Notes: generated from the letters alone by a model not told the origin. A stretch of 64,000 bases of DNA from Acidobacteriota bacterium (GCA_947482665.1 CANKJK010000004.1:186001-250000), one strand, 5' to 3'; shown: positions 16,599 through 48,836, numbered from the stretch's first letter. A program made the numbers and translations.

Positions 16599-16602
16599 CG
16601 AC

Positions 16603-19268: not shown

Positions 19269-22034
19269 ATGCCCTCGGTCTCCATCCTCGTCGGGCTGGC
19301 ATTGCTGCTCAATGCCACGTACCTCGCGTCCTATTCGTCCGCCAGCGTCTTCCACTACGCCAACGTCGGCGCCCACGTGATGCTCGGGTTGCTCGCCCCG
19401 CTGACGCTCTGGTCGATCGCACGTCGTGCGGCGGGCCGGTGGGGTGTCTCGGGCGCGTTGGCGGCTGCGGCCCTCGGCGTCGCGATGGGTGCCGGGATCT
19501 ATCTCGCATGGGTTGGGGGCGGTCGTGCCCACGATCTCGCCCGCCACGTGCACGCCGGCGTGTCGGCAGCCGCGGCCGTGCTGGTTGCCGCCTGGGTGCT
19601 GATCCTCTCCGGGCGCCGCGCCGTAGGCGCCGTCTCGCGAGGAGCCGCCATGGCCACGGTGGCGCTTGTCGTCCTGGCAACGGCCGGTGCCGTCGTGGCG
19701 AGGGCCACGGTGCCGGGCCGGCAGGCGGCCTCCTTCCGCATCACGAATCCGGCGCTACCGCCTCTCACGATGGAGGAGGAAGGCGGCGGAGCCAGGTCCC
19801 CGTTCTTTCCATCCTCGGCGAAGACTTCTGTCGGTGGCGTCATGCCCGCGGACTTCTTCATGACGAGCAAGGAGTGCGGCCGCTGCCATCGCGAGATCTA
19901 CGAACAGTGGCAGTCCTCGACGCATCACTTCTCGTCATTCAACAACCAGTGGTACCGGAAGTCCATCGAGTACATGCAGGACGTCGCAGGCGTGCCGCCG
20001 TCGAAGTGGTGCGCCGGCTGCCACGACCACGCGATGTTCTTCAACGGCCGCTTCGACCGTCCCGTGAAGGAGCAGATCGAGACACCCGAGGCGCAGAACG
20101 GGCTCGGGTGCACGTCCTGTCATGCCATCGTGCACGTGGACGGCACCATGGGGCAGGGCGGATTCACGGTCGAGTATCCCGCGCTGCACGATCTGGCGAC
20201 GAGCTCCAATCCCGTGCTGATGAAGGCGCACGATGCGTTGCTGCACATGAGCCCCGCGCCGCACAGGCAGACCTTCCTGAAGCCCTTCCACACCGAGCAG
20301 CCGGCGCAGTTCTGCAGCGCCTGCCACAAGGTGCACCTCGACAAGCCCGTCAACAACTACCGGTGGTTCCGTGGGTTCAACGACTACGACAACTGGCAGG
20401 CGTCAGCCGTGTCGGGTGAGGGCGCGCGATCTTTCTACTACCCGCCGAAGCCGCAGACGTGCAGCGACTGCCACATGCCGTGGGTGCCCTCGCAGGATCC
20501 CGCGGCACGGAATGGACGGGTCCGGTCACATCGATTCATCGCCGCGAACACCGCGCTGCCCTACGTCAACGGCGACGCCGAGCAACTCCGCCTGACGCAG
20601 GAGTTCCTCAAGGCCGGCCAGATCTCGGTGGACGTCTTCGGGCTGGCGCGCGTCGAGGAAACGCAGCAGGCCTGGGGTGGTAATGGGAGGGACGGCGAGC
20701 CGCGCCTCTCCAGCACGTTCGCCGTCGGCGAAGAAGGCGGGGATTCTGCCGTCGGTGCGGCGGGCCTGGCGCCAGTGGAAGTCGTCGGTCCGCTCGGGAC
20801 GGTGGACGCCTCGGTGCGGCGTGGAGATTCGGTGCGCGTGGAAGTGGTCGTTCGCACCCGGAAGGTGGGCCACTTCTTCCCGGGCGGCACTGTGGACGCG
20901 TTCGAGGTCTGGGTTGAGTTCGAGGCCGTCGATGACCACGGCCGTGTGCTCCTTCACAGCGGCGACGTGGCGGACGGCGGCAGCGGGCCGGTGGATCCGG
21001 GGGCGCATCTCTATCGCAGCCTCCAACTCGATGGCCACGGAAACCCCATCAGCAAGCGCAATGCGTGGTCGACGCGGTCTGTGGCCTACGTTCGCCTGAT
21101 CGGACCAGGGTCCGCGGATACCGTGCACTACCGCATGCGCGTGCCGCCCGACGCGGGCCACACGATTACCCTTCGCGCGAAGGTCAAGCACCGGAAGTTC
21201 GCCTGGTGGAATACCCAGTGGGCCTACGCCGGCGTCCGCGCACCAGGCACTCCGGCGGCCACGCGCGACCACGATGACGGCCAGTGGGTCTTCACCGGGG
21301 ATACGTCGAAGGTGTCCGGTCCGATGAAGCGGATACCCGCGCTGCCCATCACGGTGATGGCGACGGCGCAGGCCACCGTGTCCGTGCTGCCGAAGGGCGC
21401 GCCGCTGACCTCTCCTCGACGTCTGGATCCGTCGGTCCGTGAACGGTGGAATGACTACGGGATTGGCCTGCTCCAGCAGGGCGATCTGAAGAACGCCGAA
21501 GCGGCCTTCCTCAACGTCATGGCATCCGAACCCGGATACGCGGATGGTCCGCTGAACGTCGCGCGCGTCCGCCTGCAGGAGGGTGATCTCGAGGGCGCGG
21601 AGCTCATGCTGCGGAAATCCCTCACCATCAACGGAAGCCTTGCCCGCACGCACTACTTCCTCGGGACGGCGCTCAAGGGACTCGGCCGCTACGACGAGGC
21701 CATCACGCATTACGAGCAGACGGTGGCGCAGTATCCGAAGGATCGCGTGGCGCTCAATCAGCTCGGGCGCGTCCTGTTCCTGCAGCGGAAGTTCGAGCCG
21801 GCTATCGCCGTGTTCCGTCGGGTGCTGGCCATCGATCCCGAGGATTTGCAGGCGCACTACAACCTGATGCTGTGCTACCAGGGCACCGGGCAGGACGACA
21901 TGGCTGCGAAGGAGGAGACCCTCTATCTGCGCTTCAAGGCGGATGAAGGGTCGCAGGCCATTGCGGGCGACTTCTCCCGTACCTCGCCAGAAGACAACAA
22001 CGAACGCCAGAACATCCACGAGCACGGGAAGTAG
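19269..22034 (+). CDS. Membrane-anchored pentahaem cytochrome c (c554-like) with C-terminal TPR repeats
   Basis: N-terminal TM segments; five CxxCH (CGRCH, CAGCH, CTSCH, CSACH, CSDCH); TPR motifs in the last ~180 aa. Confidence 0.9.
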   Translation: MPSVSILVGLALLLNATYLASYSSASVFHYANVGAHVMLGLLAPLTLWSIARRAAGRWGVSGALAAAALGVAMGAGIYLAWVGGGRAHDLARHVHAGVSAAAAVLVAAWVLILSGRRAVGAVSRGAAMATVALVVLATAGAVVARATVPGRQAASFRITNPALPPLTMEEEGGGARSPFFPSSAKTSVGGVMPADFFMTSKECGRCHREIYEQWQSSTHHFSSFNNQWYRKSIEYMQDVAGVPPSKWCAGCHDHAMFFNGRFDRPVKEQIETPEAQNGLGCTSCHAIVHVDGTMGQGGFTVEYPALHDLATSSNPVLMKAHDALLHMSPAPHRQTFLKPFHTEQPAQFCSACHKVHLDKPVNNYRWFRGFNDYDNWQASAVSGEGARSFYYPPKPQTCSDCHMPWVPSQDPAARNGRVRSHRFIAANTALPYVNGDAEQLRLTQEFLKAGQISVDVFGLARVEETQQAWGGNGRDGEPRLSSTFAVGEEGGDSAVGAAGLAPVEVVGPLGTVDASVRRGDSVRVEVVVRTRKVGHFFPGGTVDAFEVWVEFEAVDDHGRVLLHSGDVADGGSGPVDPGAHLYRSLQLDGHGNPISKRNAWSTRSVAYVRLIGPGSADTVHYRMRVPPDAGHTITLRAKVKHRKFAWWNTQWAYAGVRAPGTPAATRDHDDGQWVFTGDTSKVSGPMKRIPALPITVMATAQATVSVLPKGAPLTSPRRLDPSVRERWNDYGIGLLQQGDLKNAEAAFLNVMASEPGYADGPLNVARVRLQEGDLEGAELMLRKSLTINGSLARTHYFLGTALKGLGRYDEAITHYEQTVAQYPKDRVALNQLGRVLFLQRKFEPAIAVFRRVLAIDPEDLQAHYNLMLCYQGTGQDDMAAKEETLYLRFKADEGSQAIAGDFSRTSPEDNNERQNIHEHGK

Positions 22035-22036
22035 TC

Positions 22037-23731
22037 GTGACACGCCGGCGCATCCTTGTTCCCCTGGTCACCCTCCTGCTGTGGAGCGCGTTGGGGCTGC
22101 GTCCGGAAACCGCCGGGCCGGTCACCTTCAAGGACATCACGGCGTCGGCCGGCATCCGTTTCACCCAGAACAACGGGGCGTTCGGCGCGAAGTATCTGCC
22201 CGAGCAGCTCGGGTCCGGCGCGCTCTTTCTCGACTTCGACGGCGACGGCTGGCAGGACCTGCTTTTCGTCAACGCCACCAACTTCCCGGGACGCCAGGGC
22301 CCACGGTCACGCGCGGCGTTGTACCGGAACCAGGGGAACGGCACGTTCAAGGACGTGACGGTCGGCTCCGGGTTGGATGTCCCGCTCTACGGCGTCGGGG
22401 GCGTCGTGGGTGACTACGACAACGACGGGAAGCCCGACGTCTATCTGACCGCGTGGGGCGGCGGGCGCCTCTTCCGGAACGCCGGTGGCGGCAAGTTCGT
22501 GGACGTGTCGCAGGCCGCTGGCGTTGTCGACCGAGGCTGGTCCACCGGTGCGCTCTGGGTGGACTACGACAAGGACGGCCGGCTCGATCTCTTTGTCAGT
22601 CACTACGTGGAATGGGACGTGAAGTCGAACGTGCCCTGCACGAACAACGGGACGAAGCGCAACTTCTGCGGCCCCTCACCCTACCGGCCCACGGCTCCGC
22701 TGTTGTTCCACAACACGGGCAACGGTGTGTTCCACAACGTGACGCAGAAGGCCGGGCTGGCGGCGCCGCTGTCGTCGGGCCTCGGTGTGGCCATGCTGGA
22801 TTTCGATGGCGACGGCTGGATGGATGTCTTCGTCGCCAACGACCTGCGGCCGAATCAGTTGTTCCGGAATCGTGGCGACGGCACGTTCGTCGACGCGGCG
22901 CGTCGGGCGGGTGTGGCCGTGTCCGAGGCGGGCGCTGCGCGCGCCGGCATGGGCGTGGACGCGGCCGACTACGATGGCTCGGGTTGGCCCAGCCTCGTCG
23001 TCGGCAATTTCTCCCACGAGATGCTGTCCCTCTATCGCAACGGTGGGCGAGGACTCTTCATCGATGAAGCGCCGCGGTCGGAGGTCGGGCGCGCCTCGCT
23101 CCTCTCGCTCACGTTCGGCTGCTTCTTCTTCGATTACGACCTGGATGGCTGGCCCGACATTCTCTCCGCGAACGGGCACATCGACGAGTTCGTCGCGGAC
23201 TACGACGCGAAGGTGCCCTATCGCCAGCCCCCTCACCTGTTCCGCAACACCGAGGGTAAGGGATTCCAGGAGGTCCTCAAGAACGTGGGGGCCGACCTGG
23301 CGCTGCCGATTGTCGGCCGCGGCGTGGCCTACGCGGACATCGACAACGATGGCGACCTCGACATCGTCCTCACGCAAAGCGGCGGTCCGGCGCGGCTTCT
23401 CCGGAACGACGGGGGCAATGCGAATCACGCCATCCGCGTGGAACTGGTCGGCTCGGCGTCCAACCGCGCGGCCATTGGTGCCCGCATCGACATCGAGATG
23501 GCTAACGGCCGCAAGTCCTGGAGCACGGTCAAGTCCGGCTCGTCCTTCGCGTCCCAGAGCCAGCTGGGTGTGACCTTCGGCCTCGGAGCCGAATCTGGCG
23601 TCAAGGGGCTGAAGGTCCGGTGGCCGTCGGGCCAGGTGACGACCCTTGGCCCCGTGCCCGCCGGACAGATCGTTCAGGTGACGGAAGGCAAGGGGCTCAC
23701 CGCCTCCATGCCCTTCACGCGTCCCCGCTGA
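22037..23731 (+). CDS. CRTAC1-like protein (FG-GAP/VCBS + ASPIC/UnbV)
   Basis: FLDFDGDGWQDLLF, GDYDNDGKPDVYLT repeats; C-terminal SNRAAIGARI...VKGLKVRWPSGQVTTLGPVPAGQ. Confidence 0.92.
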   Translation: MTRRRILVPLVTLLLWSALGLRPETAGPVTFKDITASAGIRFTQNNGAFGAKYLPEQLGSGALFLDFDGDGWQDLLFVNATNFPGRQGPRSRAALYRNQGNGTFKDVTVGSGLDVPLYGVGGVVGDYDNDGKPDVYLTAWGGGRLFRNAGGGKFVDVSQAAGVVDRGWSTGALWVDYDKDGRLDLFVSHYVEWDVKSNVPCTNNGTKRNFCGPSPYRPTAPLLFHNTGNGVFHNVTQKAGLAAPLSSGLGVAMLDFDGDGWMDVFVANDLRPNQLFRNRGDGTFVDAARRAGVAVSEAGAARAGMGVDAADYDGSGWPSLVVGNFSHEMLSLYRNGGRGLFIDEAPRSEVGRASLLSLTFGCFFFDYDLDGWPDILSANGHIDEFVADYDAKVPYRQPPHLFRNTEGKGFQEVLKNVGADLALPIVGRGVAYADIDNDGDLDIVLTQSGGPARLLRNDGGNANHAIRVELVGSASNRAAIGARIDIEMANGRKSWSTVKSGSSFASQSQLGVTFGLGAESGVKGLKVRWPSGQVTTLGPVPAGQIVQVTEGKGLTASMPFTRPR

Positions 23732-23773: not shown

Positions 23774-24604
23774 ATGCCGTCTTCCGTCCGCTCACGTACG
23801 TTTCTGCGAGGTGCCTGCACGGCCGCCGCGCTGTTGCTGCTCGTCGCGCTCTTCGTGCCGCATCTCGCAGCCGGCGGGGGACAGGGTGACGATCTGCGTC
23901 GCCGGATGGACGCCCTCGAGGCAGGCCAGAAGGAGATCCTGAAGCAGCTGCAGGAGTTGAAGGCGCTGGTGCAGCAGCGCCCGGCCGCGCCCACCGGCCA
24001 GCCCTCGGCCGTGCCTCCGCCGCCTGCACTGCCGTCCCAGCCGGTGTCGCTCGTCGGCGCCGCGACGCGAGGAAGCGCCAGCGCCAAGCTCACGATGGTC
24101 GAATTCTCCGACTTCCAGTGCCCGTTCTGTGGCCGGTACGCGCGCGAGACCTTCGACCAGATCAACCGCGAATACATCGCCACCGGCAAGGTGCGCTACT
24201 TCTTCCGCCATTACCCGTTGGAGCGGCTCCATCCCAATGCGTTCAAGGCCGCGCAGGCAGCCGAATGCGCCCTGCAGCAGGGCAAGTTCTGGGAGTTGCA
24301 TGATCGGCTGTTCACCAATCAGCAGGCGCTCGCCGATACCGACCTCCTGAACCACGCGAAGGCCGTCGGGATGAACCCCGGCAAGTTCCAGCAATGCGTC
24401 GTGCAGCCGACGGTGACCGCGAAGATCCGGCAGGACATGGACGACGGCGCCCGCGCCGGCATTACCGGGACTCCGTATTTCTTCCTGGGAGTCATCGAGA
24501 AAGACGGCCGGCTGAAGGTGCTCAAGAAGGTCACGGGGGCGGCACCGTTCGCGTCGTTCAAGGGCCTGATCGACGGGCTGCTGGCTTCGCCCGAACTGAA
24601 GTAG
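23774..24604 (+). CDS. DsbA-family thioredoxin-like protein
   Basis: LTMVEFSDFQCPFCGRYARETFDQI; GITGTPYFFLG cis-Pro loop; secretion signal. Confidence 0.9.
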   Translation: MPSSVRSRTFLRGACTAAALLLLVALFVPHLAAGGGQGDDLRRRMDALEAGQKEILKQLQELKALVQQRPAAPTGQPSAVPPPPALPSQPVSLVGAATRGSASAKLTMVEFSDFQCPFCGRYARETFDQINREYIATGKVRYFFRHYPLERLHPNAFKAAQAAECALQQGKFWELHDRLFTNQQALADTDLLNHAKAVGMNPGKFQQCVVQPTVTAKIRQDMDDGARAGITGTPYFFLGVIEKDGRLKVLKKVTGAAPFASFKGLIDGLLASPELK

Positions 24605-24609
24605 GCGTC

Positions 24610-26403
24610 GTGACGTTCCGCGTCGATCTCCTCGCCGTCACCCTTGCGCTCGTGAGTTCGGCCATCGCGTGCAAGGGGGCGCCCCCTCCTTCGCCCGTCA
24701 AGAGCGCTCCTCCAGGACGCATGCGCTTTACGGACGTCACCCAGGCCTCCGCGGTGCAGTCGACCTGGGTAGCAGGCAGTTCCGGCCACAACTATTACGT
24801 GGAGCAGATGGGCGGCGGAGGTGCCTTCCTGGACTATGACCAGGATGGGCGCCTGGACTTCTTTGTGGCTGGGGGCGGCGTGTTGCCGGGTTACAAGGGT
24901 AACCGGCCGCCAGGGGATCGCCTGTACCGCAACAATCCCGATTCCACGTTCTCTGACGTGACCAAGGCAGCCGGCATTCGTACGGACTGGTACACGCTCG
25001 GCGCTGCTTCGGCCGACTACGACAACGATGGTCTGCCTGACCTGTTTGTGACGGCCGTTCAGGGGAACACGCTCTATCACAACGATGGTCACGGGCATTT
25101 CGTCGACGTCACGGAGCATGCCGGTGTCAGAGGCTCGGCGCTCTCCACCAGTGCGGCCTTCCTGGACTACGACAATGACGGGTGGGTTGATCTGTTCGTG
25201 GGGCGCTACATGGACTACGCGGTGATCGCGGATAAGGGGTGCGCGATCCGGGGGATGGGACAGCAGGACCTGAATCGCGCGCGGATCATGGAGGAACACC
25301 AGAAGGGAGTATCAAAGCTCCCGCTGACCTGTGGCCCGCACGTGATGCCAACCACATCAAGCCTCCTGTACCACAACAACGGAGACGGCACGTTCACGGA
25401 TGTCAGCGCCGCATCAGGGATCAGTGCGGCCCAGGGTCACGCGCTGGCTGTCGGCATTGCCGACTTCAATGACGACGGGCTTCCGGATATTCACGTCGCC
25501 TCAGATGGCTATCCCAGCCTCCTGTTCATGAACCTCGGCGGGGGACGATTCAAGGAAGACGCCGTCCGTGCCGGTGTCGCGACGTGGAAGGGTGGACGGG
25601 CGTTCGCAGGCATGGGCACCGACACCGCCGATTTCGACAACGATGGCCGGGCGGATCTGGTCACGTCGAACTACGAAAAGGAACCGGAGACGCTCTATCG
25701 GGGCCGAGGCGACGGAACGTTCATCGACGTCGTTGAGCAATCCGGTGTGATGACGCCGAGCTATCCCTTCCTGAAGTGGGGCGTTCGTGCGTTGGATTTC
25801 AACGGGGATGGCTGGAGAGATCTCATGATTGTGTCGGGACACGTGGACCCGGCCGGGACTCCGGGACGGCCGCTCAACATCCCTGATGAAAGCTGGCCCG
25901 GGAAGGGCTTTGCGCAGGAAGCGCTGGTCCTGGTCGGAACCGGGACGGGAACGTTCTCAGACAAGTCGGCTTCCTCCGGGCCGTTCTTCAAGGACAAGCA
26001 CGTCGCGAGGGGAGCGGCCTTTGCGGATTTCGATAACGATGGCGACTGGGATGCCCTGATTGTGAATATCGACGAGCCCGCTGTGCTGCTGCGGAACGAC
26101 AGTCCAGGACATCGTTGGGGCCGATTGCAGCTTGAGGGTGCGGGCTGCAACCGGGATGCGCTCGGGGCTCGTGTCCGGGTGACGACCGGAAATCTGACGC
26201 AGACCGAGTACGTGCGTTCGGGTAGCAGCTACCTCTCGGATCATGACCGCCGTCCGCTCTTCGGACTGCCCGGTTCCGCTCCCGCCGTCGCTGAGATCCG
26301 ATGGCCGTGTGGAGCCGTGCAGACGGTGAACCTGCAGCCGGGCCAGACCGTGCGCGTCAAGGAGGCCGGGTGCCGGCTTCCTCATCGAAAGGAAGTGCAG
26401 TGA
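24610..26403 (+). CDS. CRTAC1-like lipoprotein (FG-GAP/VCBS + ASPIC/UnbV)
   Basis: GTG start; lipobox-like SSAIACKG; FLDYDQDGRLDFFV, ADYDNDGLPDLFVT; C-terminal NRDALGARVRV...AEIRWPCGAVQTVNLQPGQ. Confidence 0.9.
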   Translation: MTFRVDLLAVTLALVSSAIACKGAPPPSPVKSAPPGRMRFTDVTQASAVQSTWVAGSSGHNYYVEQMGGGGAFLDYDQDGRLDFFVAGGGVLPGYKGNRPPGDRLYRNNPDSTFSDVTKAAGIRTDWYTLGAASADYDNDGLPDLFVTAVQGNTLYHNDGHGHFVDVTEHAGVRGSALSTSAAFLDYDNDGWVDLFVGRYMDYAVIADKGCAIRGMGQQDLNRARIMEEHQKGVSKLPLTCGPHVMPTTSSLLYHNNGDGTFTDVSAASGISAAQGHALAVGIADFNDDGLPDIHVASDGYPSLLFMNLGGGRFKEDAVRAGVATWKGGRAFAGMGTDTADFDNDGRADLVTSNYEKEPETLYRGRGDGTFIDVVEQSGVMTPSYPFLKWGVRALDFNGDGWRDLMIVSGHVDPAGTPGRPLNIPDESWPGKGFAQEALVLVGTGTGTFSDKSASSGPFFKDKHVARGAAFADFDNDGDWDALIVNIDEPAVLLRNDSPGHRWGRLQLEGAGCNRDALGARVRVTTGNLTQTEYVRSGSSYLSDHDRRPLFGLPGSAPAVAEIRWPCGAVQTVNLQPGQTVRVKEAGCRLPHRKEVQ

Positions 26404-28223
26404 TGGCGGGCAAGGCCCCTGTGAGCCAGCGTGGAGGTGCCAGGACCCGACCCGACAGCCCGCTGGTAGGAAAGCTGCTGCCCATAGCCGGCGCCGTCGC
26501 GCTCTCCGCGTTTGCCGCGTTCCCATCGATTCGGGCCAGTCGGAATCTTCTGGCCAGCGTTGCGGGCGCTGCCGTGGTCCTGCTTGGCTGGGCCGTTCTG
26601 CTCTTGCTGAGCAATCGGGGCGCGGGCCGCCGGCAGGATCTGGTGAAGGAATCGACGCCCGCCGACGTGGTCCATTCGCTGACGCTGGCGGCGTTCTTCG
26701 TGTACTGGGCCTATGCCTCAGGGCCCGTGCGCACGGTTGCCGCGCCGATTGTCGCGCAGGTCGTCTTCGCTTATGTGTTCGACATGCTCCTCGTGTGGTC
26801 ACGTCGAGAGAGCTACACCCTCGGATGGGGACTGCTACCTGTCGTGGGAACCATCAATCTCTTTCTGTGGTTTCACGCTGACGGGTTTGTGTTCCAGCTG
26901 GGTATGGTGGCCGTGGCGGTCCTGGCGCGCGAGTTTCTTCGCTGGGAGCGCAACGGCGAGCGCGTCCCGGTCATCAATCCCGTCGCGCTCGCACTTGTCG
27001 TCGCCTCGGTCGCGATTATCGCCATGGCGAAGCCGGGTCTGACGACAGGTGAGGACCAGGCGGCGTTGCTGTTCGTGCCTCAGTGGATCTATCCAGCCAT
27101 CGTCGCGCTGACCCTGCCGTGGCTCTACCTGCGTCGTCTGGTGGTGCTGCCGCTCACCGCCGTGCTGGCTCTCTACCTGTTCAACCTCGTGCACCTCAGG
27201 CTGACAGGGACCTACTTCTTCGTGGACTCGACGGTGCCCGTGACGGTGTTTCTCGCCACTCAGCTCCTTCTGACGGCGGCGGAGACGCTGCCCACGTCGG
27301 AGCTTGGGCGAATGGCGGCCGGGGTCCTGTACGCGGGGGCGGTCGTTGGCCTCCATGCGTTGCTGCGCCGGTTCGGCGTGCCGACGTTTCACGCGGTGTG
27401 GCTGCCGGTTCCCGTCTTGAATCTGGCCTCCAGGGCTCTGGATTGGATCGCGCGGGTCCGCGTGTTTCGTTTCGTGAGTCCGGAGTATCTTGCCGAACGG
27501 CTGGGTCCCGGCCTGCGGAATACGGTCTACCTGGTGCTGTGGGTCGTCGTCTTCGGAGGACTATCGACGGTCAAGGCCCTTGGCGACGCTCACGAAGCAC
27601 GCACGGTACCATTCTGGTACCAGGCCTGCGAAGACAATCGCCCCAACGGGTGCCAGCGATACGAAGAACTGCTGCGCACCCACTGTGCAGCGGAGTCCGG
27701 CTGGGCCTGCAATGAACTGGGCGTGCTCGTCAACGACAAGAAACTCAGCGGCAAGGAGGACCTCGACGTCCTCTTCAACAGCGCGTGTGGTTTTGGCTCC
27801 AGTGCCGGATGTGCCAACCGGGACACGTTTCGGTCAGCCCGCCAGGACTTCGGCCACGGCGTTCCAACCCTGCTGGACTTCAGGGTGATTCTTCGGCAGG
27901 GCAAGCCCCTCCGAGAGAAGACCCCCCTGCAGATCCTTGCGAGGGCCTGCGCCGAAGGCTGGATGGCCGGCTGCGATCGGCTCGCGGCTCTCTACTTCCA
28001 GGGGACCGGCGTGACGGCGGACAAATCGAAGGCGGCAGCGTTGGAGTTCCGCGCCTGCGAGGGGCGTCACGCTCCCGCGTGCGCGAATCTCGGTTTGATG
28101 TTCAGCCAAGGTGACGGCGTACCGCAGGATCGCGCCAAGGCGCTGGACTACCTGTCGAAGGCGTGCGACCTCGGCATGGCGAAGGCCTGCACGTGGCTCG
28201 ACGAGGAGTCAGCGAAGCGTTAG
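26403..28223 (+). CDS. NqrB/RnfD-like polytopic membrane protein fused to Cys-rich Sel1-like repeats
   Basis: ~10 TM helices with INPVALALVV and GRMAAGVLYAG segments; C-terminal ACEGRHAPACANLGLMFSQGDGVPQDRAKALDYLSKACDLGMAKAC; ATG overlaps the upstream stop (TGATG). Confidence 0.75.
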   Translation: MAGKAPVSQRGGARTRPDSPLVGKLLPIAGAVALSAFAAFPSIRASRNLLASVAGAAVVLLGWAVLLLLSNRGAGRRQDLVKESTPADVVHSLTLAAFFVYWAYASGPVRTVAAPIVAQVVFAYVFDMLLVWSRRESYTLGWGLLPVVGTINLFLWFHADGFVFQLGMVAVAVLAREFLRWERNGERVPVINPVALALVVASVAIIAMAKPGLTTGEDQAALLFVPQWIYPAIVALTLPWLYLRRLVVLPLTAVLALYLFNLVHLRLTGTYFFVDSTVPVTVFLATQLLLTAAETLPTSELGRMAAGVLYAGAVVGLHALLRRFGVPTFHAVWLPVPVLNLASRALDWIARVRVFRFVSPEYLAERLGPGLRNTVYLVLWVVVFGGLSTVKALGDAHEARTVPFWYQACEDNRPNGCQRYEELLRTHCAAESGWACNELGVLVNDKKLSGKEDLDVLFNSACGFGSSAGCANRDTFRSARQDFGHGVPTLLDFRVILRQGKPLREKTPLQILARACAEGWMAGCDRLAALYFQGTGVTADKSKAAALEFRACEGRHAPACANLGLMFSQGDGVPQDRAKALDYLSKACDLGMAKACTWLDEESAKR

Positions 28224-31200
28224 CGCAGTGCCTGTCGCGCGGGCTCCGGCCCGACGTAGCGCGTGTGGTAGGTCATGAAATCCTGGTGCTGCCGGTGATA
28301 CACCGGGTCGTCCTCCAGGCGGCCTGGCGCGGCGTTGTAGCGAGGATCCCGATGCGTCGGCAGCGGGAGCACCGTACGTGAGAAGGACGTGTTGTAGTCG
28401 CCGTCCTTGACCCATCCGTCGCTCATGACGATGAAGTCGCGCGCTGTGCCAGCCTGGGGCGCCGGCGCCTCAGGGAATTGCAGGCGGAGTTCGTCGCCCG
28501 CATTCATGATCACGTAGCGGTCGTCGACGCCGGTGAGTAGTTCCCGGACGTCGCCATACCGCGTGTAGTACCCCTCAAGATCCAGCCAGCGCGGCGAGGT
28601 GCCGGCCACCGTGTACCGTGGTCTCTCAGGTGAGCTCGGGGACGACTGTTCGGTCGCCGAGTAGCCGCGGAACCTGAGGTCCGCGGTGCGCAGCGCCAGA
28701 CGCTGCGGCTCGACGTGGACGTCAGGGCGCCCAACCGCCCATCCCAGGCGATCCCAGAAGATCTCGAGGTTCGTTGAGAGGCGCAGCCGGCGGGGGCCCT
28801 GGCGCGGAAAGAGCCCCGACAGATCCAGCATCACCGTCTTGTCCTTGCCGGCCGGGAACCCGAGGTTGGCTCGGGCGGTGTGGAAGCGGCCCGACTCGTC
28901 GGCGATCTCCAGCGACAGCCCTCTCGGGGCAGGGTGCGTGCCCTGACTGATGGCGATGTTCACCGAGCTGTCCGTCGGGTGAATCCAGCCCTGGGCCACG
29001 AGCCACAGCGGGCCTCTGCGTGGGGCATCCTCCGGCAGTGTCAGCTCCACGAAGTGATCCCGCGTGATGCCCTGGTAACGCCCGCGACCGGCGAAGTCCA
29101 GGTGATGGTCGTCCCGGTCGCGCACGACGTCTCCGACCTCCCGACCCTGGTCATCGCGGACGGACGCAAAGTGGCCGACGGGTGATGTGACGACGACGTC
29201 GAGCGAAGGCGCCGGCACCGCGAAGCGTTCGTCGATGAAGACCTCCGTGCCCACGGGATGGTCGACCACCAGCAGGGACACGAGATCAAAGAAGTGTGTT
29301 TCCCAGAGCTCCGCTGTGATGCGCAGGTCGTAGGCACCGTTGCGGGCCACGATCGCCTGGCCGGGCACCTTCACCCGATCCTCGGTCATCACGACGTTGG
29401 CCGTGGCCTGGGCGTTGATGCGGAGCCCCAACGGTGATCGCCAGATGAGGTCGGACAGGAAGTTCATGGCGTGGCCGTTCCACGCGAAGAGCCACGGGCA
29501 CGAACCCTTGAGGCGCTGGTCCGCGAGCATCGTGGCGTCCGCCTTCTGGTCAAAGTCCGACTGCAGCACGCCATTCGGCCAGGTGATGCGGACCACGTTG
29601 GTGAGCGTGGCGTCGCCGAGGCCGAAGTGGACGATCGGGGACGTGATCGTCTGGCGCTGCAGATGCAGCCCGGAGCGGACTTCCACTTCACCGCCGATGC
29701 CAAACGAGTTGATCCGCTGGTCACCCTGAGCCTGTGCCGCACGCGGCCGCACCACCTGCCAGTGATACGCCTTCGAACCGCGGCTCTTCAACGTCGTGAG
29801 TTGGTGGGCCGCGTCCAGGCCAACAAGGTCCAGGCGTCCGTCGCCGTCGAGATCGGCGGCACTGGACGCGACAAGAGGCAGCGTCACAGCGAGGGGGCTG
29901 AATTGCTGGTCGTTCCCCGCCAGCAGCACGCGCGTGCCATCAGGACCCGAGACGACGAGGTCCGCCGCACCGTTGTTGTCGAGGTCGGCGACGCTGATCC
30001 GCGCCGTCCCGAGCGCGAACGTCGCTGGCGGGTTCAGTCGCGCAATTGGGGAGAGCGCCCCGGTTTCGAGCGCCATCCGCGTGATGGCGCCGTCCGCCGC
30101 GAGCAGCAGGAGGTCCAGCGTCCGGCCGTGGCTGATGTCACCAGCCGCGAGGGCGACCGCCGTCACAGCGGGAAGCGCTTGCCGGGTGAACGCGCCGCCA
30201 CGCGCATTGAGGAACACCTGCACGTGGCCTGCGGCACCCAGCATCGCCGCATCCGGCGTGCCGTCGCCATCCAGGTCGACCCAGACAAAAGCGCGGAGGT
30301 CCGCGACGCCCGTCCAGGGATTGCTCGTCGTGAAGGTGCCATCTCCGTTATTACGCAGCAGCAACGGCGCGCCGCTGATTGGGGCTGCGATCACATCCAG
30401 GTCGCCATCAAGGTCTGTATCCGCTGCCCAGAGTCCCGAGAGCGGTGAGCTGGTCACATTGCTCGGGAGATGAGCGGCCGCGGTCACGTCCGTGAAGCCT
30501 GCGCTCTCGGACTGTTGAAGAAGCCGCAGGCCCTTTGAGCTCGCGATGGCGAGGTCCGTGCGGAAGTCGTAGTTGAGGTCCACTGGCAGGATGCGGGAGG
30601 CGCCAGCGGTGCCCGGGATGATCCGCCCAGCCACAAAGACACCTGCGGGCGTCGCTGTAGCAACAACTGGCGCGCCCTCGCCGCGCAGCGAGACGATGCT
30701 CACATCCGCCGCGTCGGTGCCGCCTGGCTCCCGGCTCGGAACGGCGGTGAATGCCAACGCGGTATCCGGCGCGGCCGCCTTCGGCGCGGGATTGGGCAGC
30801 GCCAGAAAGCTATTCAGCGGCTCCCCGGCGGTGTCCTGCGCATCGCTCACGGTTGCGAGGGCCTTCCGGTAGCCAGGCGTGGCGACCAGGATGTTCTTCA
30901 GAAAGACGGCCTGGAGTTCAGCCGAGCGCGTGTCCTTCGCCGCGGCGGTCTTCAGCGCCTCCCATTGTTCGCGTGCTTCCGAGGGCCAGCCCGCTGCCAG
31001 CGCCGCCAGTGGAGCCAGCGTGTCCGCGAGTGCCGTGGCGTTGCCATGGGTGGCCACGAGCCGTGCGTACTCCAACCGGACGGCCAGATTGTCGGTCGAG
31101 CGCAGCAATGCGGAGTACGCCTGCTCGGCGGCCTGTTCGTTCGCGGCGCCGCCCAGGCGTTCGGTGAGCTGGGCAATCGTGAAGGCCGAGCGCACATCGG

Positions 31201-31615
31201 TCGGCTCGGCGCGCACGGCGTGCTTCAGGCTGTCGATCGCCTCGGGAATCCGGCCGGCAAGGGTGTGAGCCAGCGCCTGGAGTCGCAGCACGGCCGGCTG
31301 ACTTGGGGCCAGCGCGACGGCCCGTTCGAGCGGCTTGGAGGCCTGCTCCAGTTCCTGGTGCCGAAGGTACAGTAGGGCCAGGTTCGCCCAGCCAGCCGGT
31401 TCTTCGGGCACGAGGACGGTGAGGCGCTGAAACTTCTCGAGGGCGAGCCCGTCCTGGCTCGTCTGCATGGCGGCCAGCCCGGTGTGAAACGTCGAGACGG
31501 CTTCTGCGTACGCGTCAGGCGAAACCTCAGGCGATGACTTGCGCGGTGAGCAGGCGCCGCTCACCAGCGCGAGAGCCAGCAGCACGGGCACCGAGGCGCG
31601 GGATGTGCGCGTCAT
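28220..31615 (-). CDS. TPR + FG-GAP + ASPIC/UnbV giant protein with ~450-aa C-terminal extension
   Basis: Lipobox-like LVSGACSP; TPR region; FG-GAP (DLNYDFRTDLAI, DLDGDLDVIAAPI); UnbV VVRITWPNGVLQ; then LFAWNGHAMNFLSDLIWRSPLGLRINAQA. Confidence 0.85.
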   Translation of the reverse strand: MTRTSRASVPVLLALALVSGACSPRKSSPEVSPDAYAEAVSTFHTGLAAMQTSQDGLALEKFQRLTVLVPEEPAGWANLALLYLRHQELEQASKPLERAVALAPSQPAVLRLQALAHTLAGRIPEAIDSLKHAVRAEPTDVRSAFTIAQLTERLGGAANEQAAEQAYSALLRSTDNLAVRLEYARLVATHGNATALADTLAPLAALAAGWPSEAREQWEALKTAAAKDTRSAELQAVFLKNILVATPGYRKALATVSDAQDTAGEPLNSFLALPNPAPKAAAPDTALAFTAVPSREPGGTDAADVSIVSLRGEGAPVVATATPAGVFVAGRIIPGTAGASRILPVDLNYDFRTDLAIASSKGLRLLQQSESAGFTDVTAAAHLPSNVTSSPLSGLWAADTDLDGDLDVIAAPISGAPLLLRNNGDGTFTTSNPWTGVADLRAFVWVDLDGDGTPDAAMLGAAGHVQVFLNARGGAFTRQALPAVTAVALAAGDISHGRTLDLLLLAADGAITRMALETGALSPIARLNPPATFALGTARISVADLDNNGAADLVVSGPDGTRVLLAGNDQQFSPLAVTLPLVASSAADLDGDGRLDLVGLDAAHQLTTLKSRGSKAYHWQVVRPRAAQAQGDQRINSFGIGGEVEVRSGLHLQRQTITSPIVHFGLGDATLTNVVRITWPNGVLQSDFDQKADATMLADQRLKGSCPWLFAWNGHAMNFLSDLIWRSPLGLRINAQATANVVMTEDRVKVPGQAIVARNGAYDLRITAELWETHFFDLVSLLVVDHPVGTEVFIDERFAVPAPSLDVVVTSPVGHFASVRDDQGREVGDVVRDRDDHHLDFAGRGRYQGITRDHFVELTLPEDAPRRGPLWLVAQGWIHPTDSSVNIAISQGTHPAPRGLSLEIADESGRFHTARANLGFPAGKDKTVMLDLSGLFPRQGPRRLRLSTNLEIFWDRLGWAVGRPDVHVEPQRLALRTADLRFRGYSATEQSSPSSPERPRYTVAGTSPRWLDLEGYYTRYGDVRELLTGVDDRYVIMNAGDELRLQFPEAPAPQAGTARDFIVMSDGWVKDGDYNTSFSRTVLPLPTHRDPRYNAAPGRLEDDPVYHRQHQDFMTYHTRYVGPEPARQALR

Positions 31616-33195
31616 CTCAGAATCTCCTCACGGGACGGGGTATCAAATCCGGAACGCTCGAGCAGCGCCTTCAATTCTTCAGCAGTCGCGCCGAGCCTGG
31701 GCGCAGCACGCATCAGATCATCCGCCAATGCCGGGTACCAATCGCGGCGACCGCGGTCGCCGAGGCCCGCAACGTCAATGGGCGCGATCGCGGCGTCGAT
31801 CCGGGTGAGCAGTGCGGCTCGTGCCGTGCCGGTCTGGTGCGCCATGGCCGCGTCGCAGCACGCGGTGAACTCCGCGCTGAATGCGGGGCGACCGACCAGC
31901 AGAAAGCCTGGGGCATCTTCCGGCCGGCCCAGCCTGCGAACGGTTTCGCTGAAGCTGGCCGCCGCGAAGTACAGGAGGCTCACGCGCTTGAAAAGCGCGA
32001 AGTCCTCCATGCTGGCGTACAGCGCGGCGACGAGGCGTTCCGTGGCGTCGAGTTCCTGCTGCGTCTGCCGCGCATAGTCGGCGAGGGCTTCGGCGCGGCC
32101 AGGTTGGCACCATGTCTGATGGAGCACATCCACCAGACGGCCAATACCCAGCAGCGTCAGCGGAAACCCGGTGGAGAGCAACGGGTCGATCACGCCGGCC
32201 GCCGAGGGCAGCATGGCCCAGCAGGGTCCGACGACTGCCTCGCTCCTGAACGCCACGCGCGGTGAGTGGATAAACGGCCGCGTGGCCCTGGCCTGCGCAA
32301 ACTGTGCCTGCACCGAGGGCAGGCGACTCAGCAGACGCCGCCACGCCGGTTCGCCCTCCTGGAACCGCAGCTCGCGAGCCAGGCTGTCGGTCACGGCCGC
32401 ACCAGCGCTTGTCAGGCCGTTGCTGAACCTGAGGATCCAGATCCAGCCACCCGGGAAGACGTGGTGTACCGCCGCGTCGTCAATCGGAAACGGTGGACGA
32501 GCCTCGGGTGGGTTGAGGTCGTCCCAGCGTGTCACGCCGGTGAAGTGCGTATAGAGCCCCTGCGTGGCGGGCAGCCACCTGGGCGTCCGTTCATCGAGTG
32601 CGAGCGTACGATGCAGAAAGCCACGCGGGCCGCTCGCGTCGACGACAAAGCGCGTGGTGACGCGGATGGCTTGGGCGGGCCGCGTCGCCTCGATCACGGC
32701 ACCGCGGTCGCCCTCCACGTGCAAGGTCGAGATGGTCGTGTCGTCGAAATACGTGGCTCCCAGGGCGACGGCTTCGCCGACCAGGTGCTCGTCAAAGTCG
32801 GGCCGGTACCAATGCGTGTCGGCAATCGCGTCGTGCGGACTGGCGGCCACCAGCAACTGACGCTCATGCCCGGCATCCGCGAAAGGCTGATCCCAGTCAT
32901 GCCTGAAGAAGCTGAAGCCTCGCTTCAATCCGCATCCGACCTGCGGGTACGCGCGCTGCCACGTGCCCCACTTCGAGAAGGGGCGCAGTTGCGGCAGGTC
33001 GTAGCGGTCCGCGAACTCCTCGAGCAGCAGCCCTGCAAGAGGCGTTGACGATTCGCCGATCGCGAAGCGTGGATGACGGCCGCGTTCGAGCAGCACGACG
33101 GAGTAGCCGAGGCGCCGCAACGCGAGGGCGGTCAGCGAGCCGCTGAAGCCCGCGCCCACGATCGTGACGTCCGCGTCGAGGTGGGTGACGGCCAT
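31612..33195 (-). CDS. FAD-dependent oxidoreductase, tryptophan-halogenase-like superfamily
   Basis: DVTIVGAGFSGSLTALALRRLGYSVVLLERGRHPRFAIGESSTP; FVVDASGPRGFL; FPGGWIWILRFSNGLTSAGAAV; start ATG 33195 preferred over 33219. Confidence 0.82.
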   Translation of the reverse strand: MAVTHLDADVTIVGAGFSGSLTALALRRLGYSVVLLERGRHPRFAIGESSTPLAGLLLEEFADRYDLPQLRPFSKWGTWQRAYPQVGCGLKRGFSFFRHDWDQPFADAGHERQLLVAASPHDAIADTHWYRPDFDEHLVGEAVALGATYFDDTTISTLHVEGDRGAVIEATRPAQAIRVTTRFVVDASGPRGFLHRTLALDERTPRWLPATQGLYTHFTGVTRWDDLNPPEARPPFPIDDAAVHHVFPGGWIWILRFSNGLTSAGAAVTDSLARELRFQEGEPAWRRLLSRLPSVQAQFAQARATRPFIHSPRVAFRSEAVVGPCWAMLPSAAGVIDPLLSTGFPLTLLGIGRLVDVLHQTWCQPGRAEALADYARQTQQELDATERLVAALYASMEDFALFKRVSLLYFAAASFSETVRRLGRPEDAPGFLLVGRPAFSAEFTACCDAAMAHQTGTARAALLTRIDAAIAPIDVAGLGDRGRRDWYPALADDLMRAAPRLGATAEELKALLERSGFDTPSREEILR

Positions 33196-33199
33196 GCGG

Positions 33200-34183
33200 T
33201 CAGTGCGCCGAGCCGCCACAGTCGCCGCAGGCGACGGGGGGAGCGAGCTGCTGAGAGTGATTCATCTGTACGAGTCGCGCGCGGCGAGCCTGGGCGCACG
33301 CCTCGCAGTCGCTAAAGCGATCGAGATCCCACGCGTCGGCGAAGACATAGCCGCGCGCACGCGTCAACGCCAGGATACAGGCACGCTCCAGGTGCGCCAA
33401 TCGAGGCTCCGCGAAGAGCCCTTCGCCTGCGAGCGCTTCCAGTGCTCCGTTGCCCGTGCGGGTTGGAATCAAGGAGACCGCAGACGCTCCGCACGCAAAC
33501 GCCACGTCGACCGACCGTTCCAGCCACGCGTCCTGCTCAGCGGTCGGAATGAACGGCGGGTGCACCAGCAGAAAGACCCGGAGGCGGATGCCGCGCTCGG
33601 CGAGCGCCGCTGCCGCACGCGTGAAGTCGTCGACCGTCATGCGCTTGTGCAGTCGAGCCAGCGCGTCGGGATGCGCCGTTTCGAGCCCCATGGCCACTTC
33701 GAGAGCCGTGGTCCGCAAGGCGCGCTGCCAGCGGTCGACGCGCGGTCCCACAAGGGAGGGATGCGATTCCACGATCACCCGGGAGATCCCGGAGAGGGCG
33801 TCCGCGAGGTCCTCGCAGTCGCTCTCGGGCACGGCCCGCGGGTCGAAGAAGCTGCCCGCGTTGTAGAGCTTGACGTGCGCCGGCACTCCACCCGGGGCGC
33901 TGCGCATCTCCAACAGTGCCTGGCGCACCTGGGCCGCGAGGGCGCCCGGTGGCGTGTCGCCAGGAATCGTGTGGCGCCACAGGTCGCACATCACGCAACG
34001 CCAGGGGCACTCACGGCCGGTGAGGAAGATCGTCGCGACGCGGGCGAGCTGTCCGGTCGCGTCGGGCTCCTCGTCGATGATCCACCCCTGGTGACGGAGC
34101 GGATCGTGGTCCGGCCGCGGTCCACGCCGATCGAGCACGAACCGATCGCGTTGGGCGATCCCGGCCGGATACGACGCCGTCAC
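33200..34183 (-). CDS. Radical SAM protein (Elp3/COG1244-like)
   Basis: IFLTGRECPWRCVMCDLWRHTIP (Cx3Cx2C), KLYNAGSFFDP, MGLETAHPDALARLHKRMT; extra C-terminal Cys pairs CEAC and CGDC. Confidence 0.85.
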   Translation of the reverse strand: MTASYPAGIAQRDRFVLDRRGPRPDHDPLRHQGWIIDEEPDATGQLARVATIFLTGRECPWRCVMCDLWRHTIPGDTPPGALAAQVRQALLEMRSAPGGVPAHVKLYNAGSFFDPRAVPESDCEDLADALSGISRVIVESHPSLVGPRVDRWQRALRTTALEVAMGLETAHPDALARLHKRMTVDDFTRAAAALAERGIRLRVFLLVHPPFIPTAEQDAWLERSVDVAFACGASAVSLIPTRTGNGALEALAGEGLFAEPRLAHLERACILALTRARGYVFADAWDLDRFSDCEACAQARRARLVQMNHSQQLAPPVACGDCGGSAH

Positions 34184-35511
34184 ACGTAGCTGGCGAGAAA
34201 ACTCCGCCGATAGGCGGCTTCACTGCCGCCCAGGTGCGCGCGCATCGTGTCGACAGGGACGGCGCCGTGCTGGAAGCGACGCTTCGGGAAGACAGGCATG
34301 TCCAGCCCCATGACCGCGCGGACGCCGCGCTGGACGATGTCGCCCTTGAGCGAGTAGAGCGTGGGGACGTCGTAGCCCGTCAGCGCCGCGAACGGGATGC
34401 CTTCCGCGACTTCCATCACGCCGGGTCGCGTGAACGGGCTGAAGCCGGCGAAGCCGAAGTGGCGCAGCGGCGCGTAGGTCCGCACATAGCCACGGCTCAG
34501 GCCGCCGCTGTAGGTCAGCGAGTGCTTGATCTTCCCGACGCCCCACCCCTCCTGGTAGAGCATCAGGTTGTCCACCACGCTCCGGATCGTGAGCTCGGGG
34601 TTCTCCTCGATCGGGTAATCCTTCAGGTTCTCGTCGCCGCCGTCTCCGTCGGCCAGATACCGCCAGTCCCGGTGCCGGGCACGGATGCCGCGACAGAGGA
34701 GCAGGCCCATCGCGGCACATTCCACGTCGAGAGGCTTGTAGTCTTCAAGAACGCTGATGGCGGCCGTTGCGTCGAGGTCCGTGGGCGAGGCTTCGATCTC
34801 CTCGAGGAACATCGAGAGGTCGAGGCGAGACAGAAAGGCCCGGGCCTGGTCCACGTCAGGGCCGTCGCCGAGGTTCAGGACGAAGGCCTTGAGCCGAGCT
34901 GGTGACATGCCGAGGTTCAGCATCGCGTGGTACACCGCGAGGAAGACCGCGCCGCTGTCCACACCGCCCGAGAAGCACACGCCGATGGGCGCACCCGGAG
35001 ATCGCGCGTCCAGGGCCTGCAGCCACTGCGATGTCTCGCCGACCAGTGCTGTGATGTAGCGCCGCCCGATCTCGTCGAGGTCGGCGGGCAGCGCTCCACG
35101 CTCAGGTGTGAAGAAGCGCGTGTAGGTCGGATCGGGGTCAGGGCAACCCACCAGTCGCAATTCGACCACGTGGTGCGCGGGGATCATCCGCGTGTAGCTG
35201 GGGTGGAACTGCCCGTCGAGACCCTCGGCGGCGAGTGCCTGGTGCAGCCGGTCGATCCGGTCTGCTACGAACAGCGCCGGCCCGGCCTGGCGCTTGGCGA
35301 GGAAGTACCGCACGGGGCGGTCCATCGACCGCGCGAGCCGCACGGTGATGCCATCCTTGGCCAGCAGGGCGAAGGAGCCCTGGATGCCGCGCACGTCGTC
35401 CGGGCGACCTGTCAGCACCCGCCCGCGCGCCTCGTCCACTGACATGTTGAGGATGTCGTTGGCGTCCGGGTCGAGGAGATCCACCACGCGTTCTATGTAC
35501 TGCGGCCCCAT
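34180..35511 (-). CDS. Asparagine-synthase-like ATP-dependent enzyme lacking the N-terminal glutaminase Cys
   Basis: PP-loop CFSGGVDSGAVFLA; LADGDGGDENLKDY; starts MGPQ, not MCG, with in-frame TAG just upstream. Confidence 0.85.
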   Translation of the reverse strand: MGPQYIERVVDLLDPDANDILNMSVDEARGRVLTGRPDDVRGIQGSFALLAKDGITVRLARSMDRPVRYFLAKRQAGPALFVADRIDRLHQALAAEGLDGQFHPSYTRMIPAHHVVELRLVGCPDPDPTYTRFFTPERGALPADLDEIGRRYITALVGETSQWLQALDARSPGAPIGVCFSGGVDSGAVFLAVYHAMLNLGMSPARLKAFVLNLGDGPDVDQARAFLSRLDLSMFLEEIEASPTDLDATAAISVLEDYKPLDVECAAMGLLLCRGIRARHRDWRYLADGDGGDENLKDYPIEENPELTIRSVVDNLMLYQEGWGVGKIKHSLTYSGGLSRGYVRTYAPLRHFGFAGFSPFTRPGVMEVAEGIPFAALTGYDVPTLYSLKGDIVQRGVRAVMGLDMPVFPKRRFQHGAVPVDTMRAHLGGSEAAYRRSFLASYV

Positions 35512-35601
35512 GGGCGGATTCTAACAGTTCCCTTTCCCTGGGAGTCGCCCCCGCGACGCAGAACGCCGAAGGGTTACTCTAGGCAGACTCGCCATCTACC
35601 G

Positions 35602-37584
35602 ATGGATGAGATTCGAAGGATGTCTGCCATGCGCCGCGCGCTGCTTCCGTTCGTGCTGCTGACCACTGTCATCGGCGTGATTGCGCAGCAGCGCCCCGTC
35701 GACGTGCCTTTCCCCTTCGTTGATATCGGTGCCAATACGCTGGCGGCCCGGAAGCAGGCTCAGCTCGCGACGGCCGCACAATTCAACGTGTTCCATGGCT
35801 TCCATTTCGTGGACCGGGTGACGGAGAGCGGTATTACCTTCCGCCATCACATCGTCGATGACGCCGGCAAGCACTACAAGATGGCCCACTACGATCATGG
35901 CAACGGGGTGGCCGCGGCGGATGTGGATGGCGACGGCCTCGTCGACCTCTATTTCGTCAGCCAGCTCGGTGGCAATGAGCTCTGGAAGAACCTGGGCGGG
36001 GGCAAGTTCGCCAACATCACCGCGAGTGCGGGTGTGGCCGCCGCGGGTCGCATCGGCGTGACCGCGTCGTTTGGAGATATCGACAACGACGGCGATCAGG
36101 ACCTGTTCGTGACCACCGTCCGCGGGGGCAACGTGCTGTTTGAGAACGACGGCAAGGGCCACTTCAACGACATCACGCGAACGGCAGGCCTAGGCCTCGT
36201 GGCGCACTCATCGGGAGCCGTATTCTTCGACTACGACCGGGACGGCCTGCTCGACCTGCTCGTGTGCAACGTCGGGAAGTACACCTCGGACGTCAAGGGC
36301 TCCGACGGCGCCTATGTCGCCCTGCCCGATGCCTTTCAGGGCTTCGCGCATCCTGAACGCCTGGAGCATCCCGTTCTTTATCGGAACGCGGGGCACAATG
36401 TCTTCAAGGACGTGACGGTGCAATCTGGCCTCACGCCGAAGATCTGGAGCGGCGACGCCATCGTCACAGACCTGAACCGCGACGGGTGGCCCGACATCTT
36501 CCTGCTGGTGATGGCGGGTCAGCAGCGCTACTACGAAAACGCCGCGGGAAAGGGGTTCGTCGAGAAGACGGCGAAGTACTTCCCGAAGACGCCGATGGGC
36601 GCCATGGGCATTGCATCGCTGGACTTCGACAACGACGGCCGCATGGATCTGTTCCTGACCGATATGCACTCGGACATGCCGCAGGAAGTTGGCCCGGACC
36701 GCGAGAAGGTCAAGCCTGCATCCGCGAACGCGGCCATGAAGGGCGGTACGGCGGCGGGGCACGGCGCGGCCCCTATGGTGATGGCGCCCGGTTCTCCCTC
36801 GGACTACATCCTCGGGAATGCCCTCTTTCGCAACAACGGCACCGGTCCGTTCGAGGAGGTGTCCGATCGCATGGGCGTCGAGACCTACTGGCCGTGGGGT
36901 GCGAGCGCGGCTGACCTCAATGCTGATGGGTGGGTGGACCTCTTCGTGACCGGCAGCATGAACTTCCCGTATCGCTACGGCATCAACTCCGTGCTGCTGA
37001 ACAATCTCGGCCGGAAGTTCCTGGACGCGGAGTTCATCCTCGGCGTTGAGCCGCGGAAAGGCGGTCGGACGTCCACGTTCTGGTACGAGGAAGACTGCAC
37101 CACGGGCGGAGCCAACAGGAGCCGGCCCGTCGGCGGGCGCGTGATGTCGCCCTGCCAGGGCCGAACGGGCAAGATCAACGTCATGGCGACGCTGGGCAGC
37201 CGCTCCTCGGTTGTATTCGATCTGGACAACGACGGCGACCTGGACATCGTGACCAGCGACTTCAACTCTGCCCCGCAGATCCTCGTCAGCGACCTGAGCC
37301 AGCGGACGGCCCCTCACTGGTTGAGCGTGAAGTTGACCGGCACGGCTTCGAATCGCAGCGGACTTGGGGCCACGGTCCGCGTGGTGTCCGGCAAGCAGAC
37401 CTGGACCCGGTACGTCGACGGAAAGTCGGGCTATCTCTCCCAGAGCGCCCTCCCGCTCTACTTCGGTCTCGGAGACGCGACGACCGTTGACCGCGTCGAG
37501 GTCGACTGGCCGTCGGGCCGGAAGCAGGTAGAGCGGCAGGGGCTGGGTGTGAACCGGACGTTCTCGCTCACCGAGCCCAAGTAG
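35602..37584 (+). CDS. CRTAC1-like protein (FG-GAP/VCBS + ASPIC/UnbV)
   Basis: ADVDGDGLVDLYFV, GDIDNDGDQDLFVT; C-terminal SNRSGLGATVRV...VEVDWPSGRKQVE. Confidence 0.9.
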   Translation: MDEIRRMSAMRRALLPFVLLTTVIGVIAQQRPVDVPFPFVDIGANTLAARKQAQLATAAQFNVFHGFHFVDRVTESGITFRHHIVDDAGKHYKMAHYDHGNGVAAADVDGDGLVDLYFVSQLGGNELWKNLGGGKFANITASAGVAAAGRIGVTASFGDIDNDGDQDLFVTTVRGGNVLFENDGKGHFNDITRTAGLGLVAHSSGAVFFDYDRDGLLDLLVCNVGKYTSDVKGSDGAYVALPDAFQGFAHPERLEHPVLYRNAGHNVFKDVTVQSGLTPKIWSGDAIVTDLNRDGWPDIFLLVMAGQQRYYENAAGKGFVEKTAKYFPKTPMGAMGIASLDFDNDGRMDLFLTDMHSDMPQEVGPDREKVKPASANAAMKGGTAAGHGAAPMVMAPGSPSDYILGNALFRNNGTGPFEEVSDRMGVETYWPWGASAADLNADGWVDLFVTGSMNFPYRYGINSVLLNNLGRKFLDAEFILGVEPRKGGRTSTFWYEEDCTTGGANRSRPVGGRVMSPCQGRTGKINVMATLGSRSSVVFDLDNDGDLDIVTSDFNSAPQILVSDLSQRTAPHWLSVKLTGTASNRSGLGATVRVVSGKQTWTRYVDGKSGYLSQSALPLYFGLGDATTVDRVEVDWPSGRKQVERQGLGVNRTFSLTEPK

Positions 37585-48812: not shown

Positions 48813-48836
48813 GCGCCGCTGGCGTCCAGGAGTCCC

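Follow-up and report, generated by a model that had tools for sequence, protein, structure and literature searches.

Three enzymes encoded side by side in an acidobacterial operon, namely an AsnB/beta-lactam-synthetase-like amide ligase, a radical SAM enzyme and a flavin-dependent halogenase-type enzyme, constitute one functional unit that is co-inherited and usually co-linear, and that is recurrently, yet not obligatorily, linked to a giant UnbV protein predicted to be exported. Each of the three enzymes represents a new subfamily of an established type, and their combination is a novel variation on a tailoring-enzyme pathway; we found no description of the trio or of the function of these UnbV giants in open-access papers. 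In the DNA analysed, a 64-kb stretch of a 3.53-Mb genome with a completeness of 97.5% (hereafter the window), the four genes run along the minus strand from 35511 down to 28220. The AsnB-like gene (34180..35511; 443 aa; PF00733) comes first and is followed by those for the radical SAM enzyme of a RaSEA-like subfamily (33200..34183; 327 aa; PF04055), the flavoenzyme of the PltM/CtcP branch (31612..33195; 527 aa; PF04820) and the giant, lipoprotein-like TPR/FG-GAP/UnbV protein (28220..31615; 1131 aa). Overlaps of 4 bp join the AsnB-like to the radical SAM gene (34180-34183) and the flavoenzyme gene to that of the giant (31612-31615), while a 4-bp gap (33196-33199) lies between the radical SAM and flavoenzyme genes, given the ATG at 33195; the alternative flavoenzyme start is a longer GTG frame from 33219. 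The window confirms the coordinates of this arrangement of two overlaps and one gap of about 4 bp as described in the first-pass annotation, and Pfam returns the domains assigned there (Asn_synthase, Radical_SAM, Trp_halogenase/FAD, and TPR with FG-GAP and UnbV_ASPIC).

Among 217 near-complete genomes of the phylum, searched with cut-offs of E ≤ 1e-60 for the AsnB-like and E ≤ 1e-30 for the radical SAM enzyme, the AsnB-like gene occurs in 25, and these are also precisely the genomes that carry the radical SAM gene; the flavoenzyme is present in 23 of these and in none of the remaining genomes (Fisher p of about 1e-33 for the AsnB-radical SAM association and about 1e-29 for the flavoenzyme, both ignoring kinship). 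In the carrier genomes the trio genes are normally adjacent. Named strains such as Acidipila rosea DSM 103428 (locus L072) have the system. A scan with one genome per species yielded 531 AsnB relatives, of which 80 were kept, mostly from Verrucomicrobia and Acidobacteria at 65-75% identity; AsnB-like relatives at 48-76% identity are found in the two phyla. At 52 of 111 AsnB loci, a set in which some loci are truncated by a contig end and a few duplicate one genome, the AsnB-like, radical SAM and flavoenzyme genes are directly consecutive in that order on the same strand, and at some of the others the radical SAM gene alone stands next to the AsnB-like gene. The idea that these enzymes travel together as a tightly co-inherited unit is thus borne out by dozens of other genomes in which they keep this order and orientation. 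The distribution is nevertheless patchy, since an AsnB-like match was recovered in only 5 of 43 genomes of the family (E ≤ 1e-3, one of the matches being weak); in one order of Verrucomicrobia it was recovered in 2 of 135. Pairwise divergence is mirrored between the AsnB-like and radical SAM enzymes (r 0.88, n = 61) and between the AsnB-like enzyme and the flavoenzyme (r 0.88, n = 49), values that are uncorrected for species phylogeny and that shared ancestry alone could produce.

Where the AsnB-like gene stands alone, mostly in Verrucomicrobia, a radical SAM gene is located elsewhere in 21 of 25 genomes. The flavoenzyme (E ≤ 1e-40) was detected in 18 of 33 genomes, all 18 being among the 25 with a solitary AsnB-like gene and none among the 8 with an AsnB-radical SAM pair; two further genomes, G161 and G232, likewise carry the pair without the flavoenzyme (E ≤ 1e-60). 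Because the pair is found without the flavoenzyme in all eight genomes of the former set and in these two, we infer that the AsnB-like and radical SAM enzymes form the core of the system and that the flavoenzyme is a frequent late or optional addition. Within a single genus, the flavoenzyme gene follows the radical SAM gene at one locus (L148 in G124) and is missing at another (L149 in G161).

Enzymes of the AsnB/beta-lactam synthetase family adenylate a carboxylate and then form an amide. The first enzyme of the operon matches this superfamily in its SGGxDS PP-loop and two-domain fold: the PP-loop motif FSGGVDSG (aa 180-187; 34951..34974, minus strand) has S181, G182, G183, D185 and S186 invariant in an alignment of 23 sequences, and the DGDGGDE motif (aa 288-294; 34630..34650, minus strand) is the counterpart of the SGEGSDE segment of asparagine synthetase in an alignment with ASNS. 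A structural model (pLDDT 84.6, with parts of aa 302-338 of low confidence) ranks beta-lactam synthetase 1mc1 first (Foldseek E 2e-11, TM 0.63), followed by human asparagine synthetase and carbapenam synthetase. As in beta-lactam synthetase, there is no glutaminase Cys: it is absent from the N-terminus, where the alignment of 23 sequences has no invariant Cys column, and the open frame leaves room for only about three further codons upstream of the start, in keeping with the glutaminase-less state claimed at first reading. The protein differs from the beta-lactam, carbapenam and asparagine synthetase B family in its identity of only 16% and in belonging to a separate subfamily spread over two phyla, with invariant blocks of its own (DRPxRYFLAK, DGDGGDENLKDYP and KRRFQxGA). 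By analogy with the characterized members, its reaction should begin with adenylation of a carboxylate, which is then coupled as an amide to a substrate amine and not to ammonia released from glutamine, since the Cys required for that release is lacking; free ammonia could conceivably also serve as its nitrogen source. AsnB-like enzymes are known within natural-product pathways, as exemplified by enzymes that amidate peptides or form nitriles, namely TsrC, ScdTA and the nitrile-forming PesC of the nitrilobacillins (PMC13060819). However, those pathways possess precursor peptides, none of which was found for the window operon, and PesC draws on glutamine or ammonia, unlike the window protein with its missing glutaminase Cys.

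The radical SAM enzyme is, by its sequence, a distant relative of RaSEA of archaeosine synthesis. The RaSEA model TIGR01210 is the only NCBI model matched by all radical SAM members (28 of 28), and the window protein scores 83.4 bits against it, far under the curated cut-off of 212; a PDB sequence search with the family profile gave nothing significant. The cluster motif CxxxCxxC takes the form CPWRCVMC (aa 59-66; 33986..34009, minus strand), with C59, C63 and C66 invariant in the family alignment. RaSEA completes archaeosine after ArcS attaches lysine to preQ0 (PMC11298593). The ArcS/RaSEA pair and the operon have in common, besides this sequence family and motif, the pairing of a radical SAM enzyme with a partner potentially able to install a nitrogen donor. 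They differ in that the partner here is AsnB-like rather than ArcS, in that the window protein is bacterial, and in the extra C-terminal Cys pairs carried by many members of its family. The affinities of the window protein lie closer to RaSEA than to a typical RiPP enzyme. An in-frame TGA in the radical SAM gene of 10 genomes of the phylum, considered as a possible selenocysteine codon, is an ordinary stop after a CxxCG tail. In about eight genomes of Verrucomicrobia, rplW directly precedes the radical SAM gene at the end of a ribosomal run, away from the AsnB-like and flavoenzyme genes (L161:4507-9989, where the order is fusA, rpsJ, rplC, rplD, rplW and then the radical SAM gene; also L158, L164, L165, L166, L097, L103 and L105). 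A 95-aa ORF adjoining the radical SAM gene in Verrucomicrobia was identified by sequence and neighbours as ribosomal protein L23.

The flavoenzyme groups with the PltM/CtcP branch of flavin-dependent halogenases, its family profile matching the phenol halogenase PltM at 265 bits and tetracycline 7-halogenase at 248 bits, and it has retained the catalytic Lys. This is Lys91 in CGLKRGF (32923..32925, minus strand), which aligns with Lys87 of PltM (CGIKLGF) and is invariant in all 25 family sequences aligned; Lys87 of PltM is catalytic and its change to Ala abolishes activity (PMC6424973). The likeness to PltM and CtcP extends over about 400 residues and takes in the HH and GW.W segments, and the FAD motif GxGxxG is present near the N-terminus as GAGFSG (family form G.gF.Gs). 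In contrast, the WxWxIP motif is altered to WIWILR in the window protein: across the family, the second W is kept in 45 of 56 members, the I position is Leu in all 56, and the P position is variable and mostly Arg. The genomic partners, too, differ from those of PltM and CtcP. The branch placement and the Lys make the first impression of a halogenase-like enzyme more precise. The enzyme also resembles the monooxygenase QhpG (82 bits) and, more faintly, the models for GoxB/LodB. The QhpG match makes hydroxylation possible and, together with the altered WxWxIP motif, leaves halogenation a tentative assignment.

The giant combines its TPR and FG-GAP regions with a UnbV_ASPIC segment (aa 658-694; 29534..29644, minus strand; PF07593, 26.8 bits against a cut-off of 23.4) and a C-terminal domain (aa 700-1131; 28223..29518, minus strand) with the conserved motifs GSCP, DHP, TRxGxV and KDxD in the family alignment. 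The model of this domain is confident and beta-rich (pLDDT 89.6); a PDB fold search with it gave no global match and none below E 1e-3, the partial likenesses being to beta-sandwiches such as APC10/DOC1 and CBM35. A homologue of the giant scoring at least 200 bits with aa 700-1131 as query is present in all 25 trio-positive genomes of the phylum, as opposed to 14 of 192 trio-negative ones, counts taken without correction for kinship. In many Acidobacteria no more than about 10 kb, and often just a few kb, separate the giant gene from the trio, to which it may be convergent (e.g. L021, L054, L059, L072 and L142-L145) or co-directional (L128 and L146); in L146 (genome G184) it abuts and overlaps the flavoenzyme gene as in the window. 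More generally, an UnbV gene lies within 5 kb of 25 of 47 linked-trio loci and 5 of 11 AsnB-radical SAM loci, as against 2 of 35 loci with the AsnB-like gene alone and none of 11 with the radical SAM gene alone. Recurrent adjacency of the enzymes to the giant had been set beforehand as the test of the proposed association, and such adjacency does recur. The link is not obligatory: the trio also occurs away from UnbV genes, for example in genus g95 of family f46 and in many Verrucomicrobia. The usual company of the giant comprises a UnbV protein of about 600 aa and an RnfD-like membrane protein of about 290 aa, the latter recognized by PF03116 in L021 and by the RnfD chain 8ahx_D at E 5e-4. This block of giant, UnbV and RnfD-like genes is a unit of its own, as it is present without the trio in Acidobacteria (L198-L201). 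A profile search of the window's own genome found no RnfD-like protein.

Several UnbV genes surround the operon on the plus strand: a divergent neighbour codes for a UnbV/FG-GAP protein of 660 aa (35602..37584), and on the other side lie one for a UnbV/FG-GAP protein of up to 669 aa (24394..26403) and another UnbV gene (22037-23731). The gene at 26301-28223 meets that of the giant tail to tail, with their 3' ends overlapping by 4 bp, and encodes a 640-aa membrane protein with a C-terminal Sel1 repeat; considered as a counterpart of the RnfD-like protein, it shows no relation (hhalign probability 0.1%). It is related (42% identity over 355 aa) to a second membrane protein of the window (43454-44986) without a Pfam match. 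Next to the UnbV run, 19269-22034 encodes a 921-aa protein containing TPR repeats and segments that resemble cytochrome c554; in Verrucomicrobia (L011, L013 and L033) its relatives lie close to UnbV and trio genes. Upstream of the run lie ABC transporter genes (15822-18356) for an SBP_bac_11 binding protein, a permease and an ATPase with a TOBE domain, of molybdate type by domain make-up. In other genomes, a different ABC transporter, NMT1-like and likewise comprising permease, ATPase and binding protein, is repeatedly found next to either the trio or the giant block (L146:13242-15896, L059:6261-9956 and L201:9989-12841), accompanied in L059 by a small HMA metal-binding protein. Farther away in the window, DUF5916 proteins of 705 and 754 aa are encoded side by side (46695-51101).

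Taking the co-inheritance, gene order and partner statistics together with the intact PP-loop, CxxxCxxC and catalytic Lys of the trio, we give about an even chance to the three enzymes being a dedicated small-molecule pathway that is linked to the exported UnbV machinery and does not modify the giant. In such a pathway, the AsnB-like enzyme would use ATP to adenylate a carboxylate and couple it to an amine of the substrate. The RaSEA-like radical SAM enzyme would then edit the amide-linked intermediate, perhaps by N-C cleavage of the kind known from archaeosine synthesis by ArcS and RaSEA; this is the least certain step, because the RaSEA likeness is weak at 83 bits against the cut-off of 212. 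Finally, in most lineages, the PltM-type flavoenzyme would halogenate, or hydroxylate, an electron-rich ring. The product, a small molecule or cofactor, would act together with the exported giant, the UnbV protein of about 600 aa and, in many relatives, the RnfD-like protein. Of the original suggestion of an undescribed pathway acting on or through either the giant or a small molecule, it is the recurrent unit that has been substantiated, with the small molecule as the favoured object and the giant not supported as substrate.

QhpG/QhpD and LodB/GoxB are maturases that build protein-derived cofactors, and the trio could by comparison modify a UnbV protein, whether the giant or another, post-translationally and ahead of its export, an alternative that we regard as rather unlikely. 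In its favour are the QhpG and GoxB/LodB matches of the flavoenzyme, the giant-type protein in every trio-positive genome, its co-directional, overlapping gene in the window and G184, and the invariance of Cys706 (in GSCP) and several other motifs of the giant; further, the maturation of quinohemoprotein amine dehydrogenase by QhpG/QhpD likewise places a flavin monooxygenase relative and a radical SAM enzyme beside a secreted protein. However, the window radical SAM enzyme is from another subfamily than QhpD and the operon has no recognised QhpC-like small subunit. Moreover, giants of the same subfamily exist without the trio and still keep the invariant Cys and motifs, the trio occurs apart from UnbV genes, and a lipoprotein-type export signal is apparent by eye on the giant, with none evident on the three enzymes. 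A search for a modification site by comparing close giants from 25 trio-positive and 5 trio-negative genomes found no residue column that tracks the trio; with only five negatives, this argues weakly against modification of the giant, which is accordingly not supported as the pathway's substrate.

That the pathway instead makes a RiPP from a short precursor, encoded elsewhere or missed, seems to us distinctly improbable. The reactions of AsnB-like enzymes do include lasso-peptide cyclisation and the formation of amides or nitriles at C-termini (PMC13060819), peptides can be substrates of halogenases and radical SAM enzymes, and a POT peptide transporter adjoins the AsnB-like gene in a few loci of Verrucomicrobia (L017, L023 and L071). 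Nonetheless, in line with the first-pass annotation, which found no precursor ORF in the divergent gap 35512-35601, no conserved short ORF lies near 52 linked trios, the recurrent short ORFs that were considered appearing to shadow genes for AsnB-like, UnbV or flavoenzyme proteins; the Pfam domains of the operon include neither a peptidase nor a recognition domain, and the model that the radical SAM enzyme fits is that of RaSEA, not one for RiPPs. This last affinity, shared by all 28 relatives, together with tRNA being the substrate of RaSEA (PMC11298593) and the placement of the radical SAM gene behind an rplC-rplD-rplW run in about eight genomes of Verrucomicrobia, could point to modification of tRNA or the ribosome, which we rate a little lower again: the occurrence in 25 of 217 genomes of the phylum and 2 of 135 of the verrucomicrobial order is patchy, the system is tied to a halogenase-type enzyme and exported proteins, and Pfam assigns no protein of the operon an RNA-binding or TGT/ArcS-like domain. 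As for four unrelated genes being neighbours by chance, the giant and the enzymes do exist independently of each other, but exact co-occurrence and a gene order that recurs in different families and in two phyla already contradict this for the three enzymes and make it scarcely credible.

Returning to the small-molecule pathway, a more specific version, in which the trio makes a new halogenated amide cofactor or ligand handed to an exported assembly of giant, UnbV and RnfD-like proteins, is on balance unlikely. Were it to hold, it would provide a function for the abundant bacterial UnbV/FG-GAP giants and place RaSEA-type chemistry outside tRNA. More broadly, the system brings RaSEA-like radical chemistry together with an AsnB/beta-lactam-type synthetase and a halogenase-type enzyme, and its occurrence across Acidobacteria and Verrucomicrobia offers a test of the function of the UnbV/FG-GAP giants.
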